Source of the DNA: Haloarcula salinisoli
GTDB taxonomy: Archaea > Halobacteriota > Halobacteria > Halobacteriales > Haloarculaceae
NCBI RefSeq assembly: GCF_019599405.1
Contig: NZ_RKLQ01000001.1
Span: 248,001 to 312,000, forward strand
Direction of reading: 5' to 3'
Length of the DNA stretch: 64,000 nt
This document shows positions 19,251 to 60,170 of this stretch, piece after piece. The notes beneath the pieces were generated by a model that was not told where the DNA came from, made no database searches, and saw only the letters and a list, made by a program, of their open reading frames with translations. Made by a program: the position numbers and the translations under genes. How positions within the stretch are numbered: the first letter of the stretch is position 1; each line of letters begins with the position of its first letter.

Positions 19251-19652
19251 ATGCACCAGTTGACGACTGTCGAGGCGGTCCACGAGGACGGCTCGTACCT
19301 GTTCACCGCCGAGGACCCCTACGGCGACCCCGAAGAGGTCATCCTGGTGCCCTGTAAGGACGGTGTCGCGGCGTGGGTCAACCGCTGTACCCACGAGAAC
19401 CAGCCGTTCGATACCGGACAGGGCGTCCCGATGCGCGACGGCGAGATTATCTGCCCCCGCCACGGCTCGCTGTTCGACGCCTGCGACGGCGACTGTGACA
19501 ACGGCGAGGCCGCCGGGACGACGCTGCCAGATATCGATATCGCGGAGCGTCATGGGACGATTTTTCTCATCGACGACGACTACGAGTTCATGCACGAGGG
19601 AGGTATCGACGACGACGGGGGACCGAGTTCGACGTCGCATCTGCAGTTGTAG
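19251..19652 (+). CDS. Rieske [2Fe-2S] protein
   Basis: The 133-aa soluble Rieske-type ferredoxin has both cluster-binding motifs: Cys46 and His48 in CTHENQPF, and Cys68 and His71 in CPRHGSLFD. The spacing is that of ferredoxin/oxygenase-type Rieske proteins, without a membrane anchor, so it is probably a cytoplasmic electron carrier or a subunit of an oxygenase whose partner is not adjacent. The C-terminus ends DDDGGPSSTSHLQL. About 370 bp downstream, beyond hairpin repeats, the sequence of this 3' end recurs in diverged form. Confidence 0.88.
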   Translation: MHQLTTVEAVHEDGSYLFTAEDPYGDPEEVILVPCKDGVAAWVNRCTHENQPFDTGQGVPMRDGEIICPRHGSLFDACDGDCDNGEAAGTTLPDIDIAERHGTIFLIDDDYEFMHEGGIDDDGGPSSTSHLQL

Positions 19653-20018
19653 GGTCCGCACGAACGGAGTGAGTGCGGTTCACTGACCACGAGGCGAAGC
19701 CGAGTGGTCAGCCTTTTTGGCCACCGAATGACTCGCTGGCTCACGGCGGGGCCGTTCGCCTCCCACGGTTCTTACTCTGCTCGAACCGCGCATTGCTCGT
19801 CTTTCGAGCCTTCGTTCGCTGCGCTCACGAAGACCACGTTTTTCGAGTCGAGCGGGACCGGCGGTCCCGCTGTCTGCGCGCGGGTCCATGACCCGCTCGC
19901 ACGGTCCGAGGGAGCTTTGCTCCCTCGCTAACCTGCGAACGGGCGCGACGCGCCGTGGGCAGAGAGTGGTGACTGTAGCGAGCACCGTGAGCGAAGTCAC
20001 CCGACGACGAAAAAGGTG
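19653..20018. repeat. Hairpin mosaic between the Rieske gene and a copy of its tail
   Basis: This gap is a string of small inverted repeats. CCGCAC/GTGCGG with loop GAACGGAGTGA is at 19656-19678, followed by TGACCAC/GTGGTCA. Three-nucleotide-loop hairpins such as GCGGGTC-CAT-GACCCGC and GAGGGAGC-TTT-GCTCCCTC follow, and then a GGTGACT/AGTCACC pair. The 114 nt at 19835-19948 are identical, in inverted orientation, to 29028-29141. The string ends in the 16-nt sequence GACGACGAAAAAGGTG (20003-20018), which also borders the mosaic next to gatB. Open frames here are by-products of the repeats. Confidence 0.8.
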
Positions 20019-20063
20019 GACGACGATGACGGGCCGAGTTCGACCTCGTATCTACATCTGTAG
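20019..20063 (+). pseudogene. Second, diverged copy of the Rieske gene 3' end
   Basis: In the frame of the intact gene this reads DDDDGPSSTSYLHL and stop, against DDDGGPSSTSHLQL and stop at the real end of the Rieske gene. Several of the codon differences are silent. It has no start and is separated from the gene by about 370 bp of hairpin repeats. It is either the original gene end displaced by an insertion or a duplication made by one. Confidence 0.7.
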
Positions 20064-28805: not shown

Positions 28806-28844
28806 TTATTCGTCCAGTTCTTCGCGAAGCAGTCCGTTGGCCTG
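28806..28844 (-). pseudogene. Second, diverged copy of the gatB 3' end
   Basis: On the minus strand this reads QANGLLREELDE and TAA, against EVNGLLREELDE and TAG at the true end of gatB (29311). Within the shared NGLLREELDE every nucleotide difference is silent. It is preceded in frame by the codons ATG AAA AAG GTG, part of the 16-nt junction at 28845-28860. The intact gene and this copy are separated by about 470 bp of hairpin repeats. Confidence 0.75.
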
Positions 28845-29310
28845 CACCTTTTTCATCGTCCTCAGAAATCGAAGATTTCTGATGGGCTGCACGAGAGCTT
28901 CGCTCTCGTGAACGTCGCCCTTCCTCGCGAGCCTTCGGCTCGCTGCGGGGAGAGCGTGGCGGCTACGCCGCCACGTCGTTCGGTTGCGGGCTGACAGCCC
29001 GCAACCGGCTCTCTGCTCACGGGCGCATCGCGCCCGTTCGCAGGTTAGCGAGGGAGCAAAGCTCCCTCGGACCGTGCGAGCGGGTCATGGACCCGCGCGC
29101 AGACAGCGGGACCGCCGGTCCCGCTCGACTCGAAAAACGTGCGCGAAAAAGGCTCGCCCTCGTGATCCGAGAGAGCAAAGCTCTCTCGTCATCTGCTCAC
29201 GGGCGGCGAAGCCGCCCGTTCGCAGGCTCGTGGGACTCGCCGAGTCCCACGCTCATCACGAAAGGCGCGAAGCGCCTTTCGGACGACTCCGCTCGGGCGA
29301 GTACAGTACC
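28845..29310. repeat. Hairpin mosaic between gatB and a copy of its tail
   Basis: This is a string of at least ten short inverted repeats, mostly with 3-nt loops: AGAAATC-GAA-GATTTCT, CGAGAGC-TTC-GCTCTCG, GTGGCGGC-TAC-GCCGCCAC, GAGGGAGC-AAA-GCTCCCTC, GCGGGTC-ATG-GACCCGC, GGGCGGC-GAA-GCCGCCC, GTGGGACTCG/CGAGTCCCAC and GAAAGGCGC-GAA-GCGCCTTTC, plus GGTTGCGGGCT/AGCCCGCAACC. Positions 29028-29141 are identical and inverted relative to 19835-19948. The end nearest the tail copy is GACGATGAAAAAGGTG on the minus strand (28845-28860). There are no genes. Confidence 0.8.
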
Positions 29311-30825
29311 CTACTCGTCCAGTTCCTCGCGCAGCAGTCCGTTGACCTCGCCGGGGTCCGCTGAGCCGCCGGTCTTCTGCATCACCTGCCCGACCAGGAA
29401 GTTCAGGGCGTTGTCCTCGCCGTCGTAGTAGTCGGAGACGGTGTCGGGGTTCTCCGCGATGGCTTCCTCGACGGCGCCCTGGACCGCGTCGCCGGAAGTC
29501 TTGCCCAGCCCCTCGCGGTCGACAATAGTGTCGGGGTCCTCGCCCTCGTCGAGCATCTCCCTGAGGACGGTCTCGTGGGCGTTCTTGGCCGTAATCTCGT
29601 CCTCGTCGACGAGTTCCACGAGCCGGGTCACCTCCTCGAAGCGGTCGTCGATATCGGTGATAGACATATCGCGGTAGTTCAGCTCGCCCAGCAGATTGTC
29701 GGCGACCCAGGTCGCGGCGAGGTCGGCGTCGAACGCTTCAGCGACGCTCTCGAAGAAGTCGGCGACCTGTTTGGTGCTGGTGAGTTTCGAGGCGGCCTCG
29801 TCGCTCAGCCCGTACTCGGCGACGAACCGCTCGCGGCGGGCGTCCGGGAGCTCCGGAATCGCGATTTCGTCTTTCCAGCCCGACACCTGCAACGGCGGGA
29901 TGTCGGCCTCGCGGAAGTACCGATAGTCCTTCTCCTCCTCCTTCGAGCGCATCGAGACGGTGTTGCCGTGAGTCTCGTTGAAGTGGCGGGTCTCCTGTTC
30001 GACCGCGCGGCCCGACTGGACGAGCTTGCGCTGGCGGGACTCCTCGAAGGCCAGGGCCTTCTCGGCGCCCTTGTGACTGGAGATGTTCTTGACCTCCGTG
30101 CGGTTCGCTTCTTCGAGCACCTCGTCGTCGATGTGCCCGTCCTCGCCCACCGCCTCGGCGTCGACCATCGAGAGGTTCGCGTCGATGCGGAGGCTCCCGT
30201 CGCGAGTCGCGTCGAAGACGCCCAGATACTCCAGTACCTCCTCCAGCTTCTCGAGGAAGGCCCGAACCTCACCGGGCGCGCGGAAGTCCGGCTCCGTGAC
30301 GATCTCCATCAGCGGCGTCCCGGCGCGGTTGTAGTCGACGAGCGTGTAGTCGGCCCGCTCGATGCTGGTGGTGCGAGATTCGAGCGGTCCGCTGCCGTCC
30401 CGGACGTGCTTGATGGAGCCGGGGTCTTCCTCCAGGTGGGCCCGGCGGATGTCGACCGCACGGCGGTCACCCTCTACAGCAAACTCCAGCTCGCCGTCCG
30501 CACAGATGGGCGCGTCGTACTGCGTTATCTGGAAGTTCTTGGGCAGGTCGGGGTAGTAGTAGTTCTTCCGGTGGAAGGTGGTCTCCTCGGGGATGTCGGC
30601 GTCGATGGCCTTGCCGACCTTGACGGCGGCCTCGACCGCTCCCTCGTTGACGACCGGCAGCGCCCCTGGCAGCCCCAGACAGACCGGACAGGTGTTGGTG
30701 TTTGGCTCCTCGCTGGGCTCGGTCGAACAGCCACAGAATATCTTCGTCTCCGTCTCCAGCTGGACGTGGACCTCCAGCCCGATGACGGCCGCGAGTTCGC
30801 GGGACTCGGCGGCTTGTGCAGTCAT
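29311..30825 (-). CDS. gatB: Asp-tRNA(Asn)/Glu-tRNA(Gln) amidotransferase subunit B
   Basis: The 504-aa tRNA-binding and kinase-like subunit of the GatCAB amidotransferase activates the acylated carboxyl group and positions the tRNA. The N-terminal cradle shows IGLEVHVQL and the zinc-site cysteines in FCGCST and CPVCLGLPG, then the conserved HRKNYYYPDLPKNFQITQYD and YNRAGTPLMEIVTEPD. A C-terminal YqeY-like domain ends NGLLREELDE. The start at 30825 fits the family. GatA and GatC are not in the window. It probably works with the aspS product on Asn-tRNA formation. Beyond its 3' end lie hairpin repeats and a diverged copy of its tail. Confidence 0.93.
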   Translation of the reverse strand: MTAQAAESRELAAVIGLEVHVQLETETKIFCGCSTEPSEEPNTNTCPVCLGLPGALPVVNEGAVEAAVKVGKAIDADIPEETTFHRKNYYYPDLPKNFQITQYDAPICADGELEFAVEGDRRAVDIRRAHLEEDPGSIKHVRDGSGPLESRTTSIERADYTLVDYNRAGTPLMEIVTEPDFRAPGEVRAFLEKLEEVLEYLGVFDATRDGSLRIDANLSMVDAEAVGEDGHIDDEVLEEANRTEVKNISSHKGAEKALAFEESRQRKLVQSGRAVEQETRHFNETHGNTVSMRSKEEEKDYRYFREADIPPLQVSGWKDEIAIPELPDARRERFVAEYGLSDEAASKLTSTKQVADFFESVAEAFDADLAATWVADNLLGELNYRDMSITDIDDRFEEVTRLVELVDEDEITAKNAHETVLREMLDEGEDPDTIVDREGLGKTSGDAVQGAVEEAIAENPDTVSDYYDGEDNALNFLVGQVMQKTGGSADPGEVNGLLREELDE

Positions 30826-30905
30826 TACCCGTGGTTCGGGGCCCCCCGGCTAAAGCGTAACGACCCCTAGCTGTGGTGTTTGAATGAGTGGCTGGGATTC
30901 TTATC

Positions 30906-31204
30906 AGCCAGAAAGCCTTGCTAGCTGGTGGGGTCGACAGCGTTGCTGACAGCCAGAAAGTCCCTGGAGACGCTGCGCGTCTCCTGACCCTCGCGGAGCC
31001 GTCGGCTCCGCTCAGTCCCACCCGTAGCCGGTTGGTCAAACAGCTCTGGGCGGGACTGAAAGGGGCCGCGCTCTCGACGAAGCACGGCGAAGTAAGCACC
31101 GCAGCCAACCGTAGGGAGGCGAGGAGCACAGCGAGCCGCGCGAGAGCACGATAGACGAGCGCAGCGAGTCTATCGGCGGTCGAGAGCGCGGGGGCTTTCT
31201 GGCT
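30906..31204. repeat. Three-arm inverted-repeat element, copy B (arm 1 deleted)
   Basis: Left ends occur twice (30906-30919 and 30951-30963). Arm 1 is missing: the left end runs straight into a 47-nt two-hairpin insert (30965-31011) next to arm 2, CAGTCCCACCC (31013-31023) with GGGCGGGACTG (31048-31058). Arm 3 is complete, closed by GCGCTCTCGAC (31068-31078) and GTCGAGAGCGC (31179-31189). It contains an additional hairpin, CGATAGAC/GTCTATCG with loop GAGCGCAGCGA (31149-31175). The right end GGGGGCTTTCTGGCT is at 31190-31204. It lies between the divergent genes gatB and the coiled-coil gene. The rest of the gap to 31439 holds only the promoter of the latter (TTTATG at about 31409-31414). Confidence 0.8.
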
Positions 31205-38918: not shown

Positions 38919-38968
38919 GAGTGTGCTGCGATTCTGGGATGGTTACTTCCTTAGTGACTGCTGCGTAG

Positions 38969-39376
38969 AGCCAGAAAGCCCCCGACTGCTCGACTCCCGC
39001 GGCTCGCTGCGGTCCTCACTCCGTTGCGGTCCTTACGTCGCCGGGGTTCGTCGAGCAGTCGGCCCCTTTCAGTCCCGCCCATGCCGGCTGACCAATCGGC
39101 TACGGGTGGGACTGAGCGGAGCCGAACGGCTCCGCGAGGGTCAGGAGACGCGCAGCGTCTCCAGGGACTGAAAGGGGCGGCTGCGTGGCGGCTACGCCGC
39201 CACGTTTAACGAGGTCGGCGGAGCCGACCGCGCTTGCTACACGAAGGCGGGAGACGCAAGCACTGCAGCGAACATAGTGAGCGAAGCGCGCAACGAGCCC
39301 CCCGAGTGTAGCTGGCCGGGGCTATCTGGCTGTTGGCAGTGCTACTGACCCGGAGTACTGCCGGGGCTTTCTGGCT
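38969..39376. repeat. Three-arm inverted-repeat element, copy C
   Basis: The left end is AGCCAGAAAGCCCCC (38969-38983). Arm 1 is CCGACTGCTCGAC (38982-38994) with GTCGAGCAGTCGG (39050-39062). Arm 2 is CCCCTTTCAGTCCCGCCC (39063-39080), whose partner strand is split by a 48-nt insert (39116-39163) flanked by the 8-bp direct repeat GGGACTGA. Arm 3 is looser: GCTACAC (39236-39242) can pair with GTGTAGC (39306-39312), and more small hairpins, including GTGGCGGC-TAC-GCCGCCAC, precede it. Two right ends follow (one with CTATC for CTTTC, one intact). This accounts for most of the 545-bp gap before the PhzF-like gene; no gene is present. Confidence 0.82.
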
Positions 39377-59885: not shown

Positions 59886-60170
59886 AGCCGGAAAGCCCCC
59901 GTGCTATGGGCTCCCGCGGCTCGTTGTGCTCCTCGCTCGTTTCACTCGCTGCGGTGCTTACGTCGTCCTCAGAAACCGAAGATTTCTGATGGGTGGTTCG
60001 AGAGACGCCGACGGCGTCTCTCGTCATCCCGAAAATCGAAGATTTTCGGACGACTGCGCAAGAGCTCCGCTCTTGCGAACGCCGGGGTTCGCCCATAGCA
60101 CGGCCCCTTTCAGTCCCACCCATGCTGGTTGATCAAAGAGCGCGGGGTGGACTGAAAGGGCCGTTCACGA
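59886..60170. repeat. Three-arm inverted-repeat element, copy E (arm 3 missing)
   Basis: The left end is AGCCGGAAAGCCCCC (59886-59900). Arm 1 is CCGTGCTATGGGC (59899-59911) with GCCCATAGCACGG (60091-60103). It is enlarged by a hairpin insert containing AGAAACC-GAA-GATTTCT, GAGAGACGCC-GAC-GGCGTCTCTC, CGAAAATC-GAA-GATTTTCG and CAAGAGC-TCC-GCTCTTG. Arm 2 is CCCTTTCAGTCCCACCC (60105-60121) with GGGGTGGACTGAAAGGG ending at 60160. Arm 3 and the right end are absent. The remaining sequence to 60274 contains the promoter of the glycosyltransferase gene. There are no genes in the gap. Confidence 0.8.

Follow-up and report, generated by a model that had tools for sequence, protein, structure and literature searches.

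To our knowledge, the replacement of a gene tail with displacement of the old tail is known from eukaryotes, namely from yeast nuclei and fungal mitochondria, and from elements that code for an endonuclease. At FBA1 of Torulaspora and Lachancea yeasts the mobile unit consists of a WHO element and an upstream replacement 3' end; its integration replaces the 3' end of the gene, pushes the old end rightwards and builds tandem clusters, and the two ends of FBA1 have discordant histories. WHO elements encode an endonuclease and home mainly to one gene (PMC7282813). C-terminal replacement has likewise been described for the mORFs of fungal mitochondria, which affect atp6, atp9, cox2 and nad3 in Glomus and Allomyces (PMC3630166). 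Within the haloarchaea, the mobilisation of the SMRs of Haloquadratum walsbyi has been called enigmatic (PMC3119063).

The haloarchaeal arrangement reported here resembles the WHO system in that a new 3' end is carried and in use while the old one is displaced downstream (empty sites, an ileS chimera and gatB of the genomes G004 and G009), and in its clusters of elements and gene-end fragments (gatB in G004 and G016, citrate synthase in G012, arrays in G017 and G014). Unlike WHO, the haloarchaeal element is a non-coding hairpin of 60–470 nt without an endonuclease, affects about 20 genes and resides in archaea. Integron cassettes are comparable as well, being arrays of payloads each followed by a hairpin site (attC) and depending on an integrase and attI; here, no integrase is seen next to an element, an attI appears to be lacking and the payload is the tail of the host's own target gene. 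With mORFs the element shares a foreign in-frame C-terminus in use, a native one displaced downstream and a mostly synonymous divergence, whereas mORFs carry LAGLIDADG or GIY-YIG endonuclease ORFs and belong to organelles (PMC3630166). SMRs are similar in being transposase-free and about 110 bp long, with inverted ends and no target duplication, but they target other mobile elements and gene-tail carriage has not been described for them (PMC3119063). PATEs and IS605-type terminal palindromes are also non-coding and haloarchaeal, with a palindrome near the end (PMC3119063), but the end of the tail element is not seen at any tnpB locus of this genome. What appears to be new is tail replacement in archaea, without a coding gene, in about 20 genes and many times over, although a prior description is possible as the literature search was incomplete.

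The window, a stretch of 64,000 nucleotides with a GC content of 66%, is part of contig 1 of a Haloarcula genome of 4.03 Mb. On its minus strand lies an intact gatB (29311–30825; NCBIfam gatB equivalog, 1.3e-187), encoding subunit B of the Asp/Glu-tRNA amidotransferase, the final 39 nt of which (29311–29349) are the tail in use. The stop codon is followed by a mosaic of hairpins (28845–29310) with the left arm CACGTTTTTCGAG near 29129–29141 and several nested hairpins of 9–12 bp found by sequence inspection and hairpin scan; its 466 nt agree with the roughly 470 bp given in the preliminary description. The mosaic, in which 137 nt at the right end fold with a z-score of -5.6, closes with the conserved right end GACGATGAAAAAGGTG (28860–28845), and immediately 3' of it a second gatB tail extends from 28844 to 28806. 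Within NGLLREELDE-stop (28838–28806 in the second copy) the two tails differ in four of 11 codons (CTG/CTT, GAG/GAA, GAG/GAA and TAG/TAA), all silently. The claim that every change in the tail copy is silent thus holds for these codons but not for the two preceding ones (GAG GTC and CAG GCC), which differ non-synonymously, so that the whole match is 33/39.

A second, unrelated gene with the same order of gene, hairpins and second tail had been pointed out and was indeed found on the plus strand. It is an intact Rieske-type ferredoxin gene (19251–19652, named by sequence reading, with no NCBIfam match), which ends in the first tail copy and is followed by a second hairpin element (19653–20018, right end 20003–20018) and a displaced tail (20019–20063). 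The two elements have a block of about 130 nt in common (98% identity), and both displaced tails start right after the identical element end GACGAYGAAAAAGGTG. Among 225 minus-strand ORF ends in the window, that of gatB is the best match to its second tail (33/39; control 22/39). Second tails were also sought within 1.5 kb (at least 32/42 matching) over 464 kb, comprising the window and flanking loci which were chosen around elements and mostly lack a duplication. In this partial version of the scan proposed in the preliminary description, they occur at 3 of 46 tails near an element end and at 2 of 1363 elsewhere (p = 0.0003; E-values and p-values in places count related sites as independent). 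Further cases therefore exist and are not equally common away from hairpins, and because of both results chance is excluded as the source of the second gatB tail.

The direction of events can be read from Haloarcula rara (G002), which represents an empty site for both genes. Its gatB tail is joined directly to sequence homologous to the downstream flank here, and its ferredoxin gene body continues directly into the sequence that starts with the displaced tail. Since the empty sites join the gene to that downstream sequence, the displaced copy is the one in the ancestral position. The idea that the window's in-use gatB tail demonstrably stems from another lineage was dropped, as the H. rara tail is equally near to both copies (35/39 each). 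The situation is more informative for ileS of G003. Compared with its clade, the gene body is 90–96% identical and the displaced tail 81–93%, whereas the tail in use reaches only 73–77% (GC 0.55), the identity falling 35–50 nt after P, the point at which the carried tail begins. Between the two copies 23% of sites are changed, for the most part silently. The same odd tail is found in three other genomes (G005, 99%; G016, 89%; G027, 87%), and the near-identical block of G003 and G005 comprises tail and element plus about 36–40 nt on each side, within flanks of 85–93% identity. Judged by these identities, the ileS tail in use is foreign and the displaced one native. At gatB, G004 and G009 share the in-use tail (EELN-stop) and the element, but their displaced tails differ and are each typical of the clade concerned. 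Pooled over sites, the changes between copies are 114 synonymous and 68 non-synonymous, where 26% synonymous would be expected if random (p = 1e-25), or 40 and 32 after removal of L137 and L138, which are not independent. The ileS chimera, the gatB genes of G004 and G009 and this synonymous bias show that at least some in-use tails derive from other lineages, while the gatB tail of the window is not assignable in this way.

The element end GACGAYGAAAAAGGTG occurs exactly eight times in this genome. The slightly looser pattern CGRNGAAAAAGGTG is found 91 times in 29 of 32 Haloarcula genomes, each a separate species, as opposed to two occurrences in total of the reversed control pattern; old or variant copies are missed by this collection, which relied on one exact end pattern. 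At 39 of the 91 ends, the sequence starting 0–12 nt past the end repeats the sequence just upstream of the element, over 25–227 nt and with 76–100% identity. The scores of these flank copies reach 330, while control sequence 400 nt further on does not exceed 31; after swapping of partners two matches lie above 31, both read as orthologous genes. The arrangement is hence beyond chance and recurs near hairpin mosaics, as had been supposed, and displaced tails are also present in at least two other genera of Halobacteriales (L360, a citrate synthase-like tail, belongs to another family). The orientation to the gene is, however, variable, as illustrated by convergent genes that are hit right at the stop and lack a duplication and by a gene-head case (L006), in which the copy in use starts with MTDTPLDIG and the displaced one with MVEDPLDIG, the element being antisense to the gene. 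Owing to the latter case, template switching on mRNA was rejected as an origin.

A further 15 of the 91 ends lie beyond the stop codon of a convergent right neighbour, at a distance of 2–7 nt (2.6% for random positions), and none of these 15 sites has a duplication; here the element ends just past the neighbour's stop without any tail copy. The 3' ends of a tRNA-Ser (L099, 2884–2969) and other tRNA-like 3' ends (also L117, L350 and L351) directly adjoin element ends. From these two observations it follows that conserved sequence tends to lie on the right and that a tail copy is carried only where the insertion would otherwise sever a gene end. The remaining 37 sites belong to neither class. 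In the right flanks of 65 distinct sites, GGTG is followed by G in 60 and the eighth base is A in 43, a weakly conserved A 8 nt past the element end, and the bases in between are partly changed compared with the native gene. Seven genomes (L068, L079, L091, L106, L111, L139 and L145) have the common right flank GTGGACAAATGGTTTAACC, without duplication and in most of them with a convergent stop at +13; their element is apparently an old shared insertion.

The core of the element is a long hairpin, in which an invariant CCAC-G-TTTTTCG is paired with GAAAAA-G-GTGG around a conserved internal loop AGGAG/GACGA. The inner stem varies in sequence with its pairing kept, both sides being changed in 7 of 18 pairs, and in most copies a second hairpin with a terminal T-run precedes the core. 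In the window copies the core is interrupted by extra hairpin modules, which gives rise to the mosaic appearance. Searches in and around the elements gave no ORF, nuclease or recombinase, and no enlarged or autonomous version was detected within 10 kb around 20 sites. There was no Rfam match at gathering scores in the window and no match of one exact end pattern to viral contigs; plasmids gave three weak matches.

Displaced tails were found in about 20 unrelated genes after grouping, and most of the named ones are housekeeping genes. Those named by NCBIfam include gatB, pheT, spt5, gyrA, type II methionyl aminopeptidase, sufS, citrate synthase and nuoI, whereas ileS, thiolase and the ferredoxin were named by sequence reading. 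At least five independent hits at different points are seen in gatB (G000, G004+G009, G004+G016, G017 and G029). Different elements are stacked at citrate synthase in G012 and at gatB in G004, and a gatB cluster is present in G016 as well. In G017, three exact tandem units of tail and element of 186 bp each (L178, G017:C1:55500-58800, about 800–1500) follow a gene with the protein end ...DDLFDVVPALIEEFGG, with another element about 1 kb downstream, and in G014 four element copies are arranged with an exact spacing of 170 bp (G014:C1:1319199-1319819). The arrays terminate in a tail and native downstream sequence and not in an element, which argues for repeated insertion at the gene end; simple tandem duplication of tail and element was rejected on this ground. 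Matches at the same spacing as in the L178 array are found at the opposite end of the G017 contig (near 3341543). In G009, the ileS tail (L159) runs directly into what is left of a second tail (VAAAEASD), with no element in between, perhaps a decayed insertion.

The mobile unit thus consists of a gene tail and the non-coding hairpin element, and an occupied gene reads body, point P, carried tail with stop codon, element ending in GGTG and displaced native tail. As the unit supplies a tail of its own, the gene remains intact. Such units move between species and stack in tandem. Their spread is best explained by homing recombination of the WHO kind, which is favoured because the units are built like WHO elements at FBA1 and like mitochondrial mORFs, and to which we assign a probability of about one half. 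In its favour are also the flank copies at 39 of 91 ends, the empty sites of G002, the ileS and gatB chimeras, the tandem arrays, the synonymous bias, the convergent-stop sites, the housekeeping targets and the stems of the hairpin, invariant on the outside and covarying within. An unoccupied allele that is broken or recombines within the gene tail would be mended on the template of an occupied one; the gene body would provide homology on the left and the displaced tail fragment on the right, and tail and element would thereby be copied into the unoccupied allele. The conserved hairpin is probably a site or guide recognised by a trans-acting factor; as no nuclease is encoded, either such a factor or nothing beyond the cell's own recombination has to be assumed. 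Against homing speak the missing nuclease or recombinase ORF, the 37 unclassed sites and the youngest duplications, the copies of which are 100% identical over 86–100 nt, so that these carried tails, lacking any recoding, would remain cleavable. More tentatively, and with somewhat more doubt than trust, the element may be regarded as a new non-coding selfish archaeal element that homes into housekeeping gene ends as a natural gene drive, the unit carrying a rescue copy of the target's end and a trans-acting protein or RNA-guided machine recognising the common hairpin. The element gives haloarchaeal genes chimeric histories, with the end of another species on a native body, by which phylogenies are affected; it accounts for part of the puzzling intergenic hairpin mosaics and points to an underlying recombination or nuclease system.

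Several other explanations have to be weighed against homing. The same perfect identity of the youngest copies, a formally identical structure and the gatB duplication of G029, which runs beyond the stop codon, would suit a small transposable element with unusually long and variable target-site duplications (about 35–230 bp), the upstream copy of which was later changed by gene conversion. This is unlikely in view of duplications that usually stop at the stop codon and are absent from the 15 convergent-stop insertions, of ileS copies that differ by 23%, mostly silently, with the foreign one in use, and of identical tails and elements beside differing native tails. A MITE or canonical transposon with a target duplication of fixed length was rejected, the duplication being 25–227 nt long or absent. 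Rather improbable is the integration of circles of tail and element at P by site-specific recombination of the hairpin, as with integron attC sites or tyrosine recombinases. The sharp right end, the conserved hairpin with unpaired bases, the tandem arrays of identical units, the weakly conserved A and the tRNA 3' ends among the targets would fit, and the genome has seven integrase-family matches. However, about 20 unrelated targets lack a common core, the stretch of approximately 7 nt that separates the element end from the native homology varies between copies, unlike an overlap region, and no integrase is seen next to an element; an invariant CCACGTTTTTCG...GAAAAAGGTGG takes the place of the attC boxes (RYYYAAC...GTTRRRY).

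RNA-guided homing of the TnpB/OMEGA kind, in which the hairpin would act as RNA scaffold and the displaced tail next to it as guide, would account for the one-sided logic by which a hairpin scaffold directly precedes a right flank of usually conserved coding or tRNA sequence. It is nevertheless very unlikely, given that other ends (GAGGATGTCA and GGGTAGTTCAC types) stand behind the 16 tnpB loci of the genome and the element end behind not one of them, on which ground an origin from TnpB/IS605 (PATE) was rejected too, and that no motif left of P was found among 37 sites. Haloarchaea recombine readily, and the element has T-runs on both sides and is located at gene ends. The replacement of gene ends by ordinary homologous recombination between strains, with nothing mobile and with hairpins as transcription terminators marking intergenic ends, nonetheless has the smallest probability, as it explains neither why dozens of genes have the same element-end junction, nor why one gene is hit repeatedly at different points, nor the tandem arrays. 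After homing, a long target duplication, the tyrosine-recombinase or attC-like route and RNA-guided homing follow in that order of probability.

The window harbors a further hairpin-rich repeat family at 30880–31060, 38960–39090 and 59890–60135, which is bounded by CCAGAAAGCCCC... and ...GGCCCCTTTCAGTCCCACCCATG and differs from the tail element. A piece resembling this family lies 3' of a tnpB in L224.
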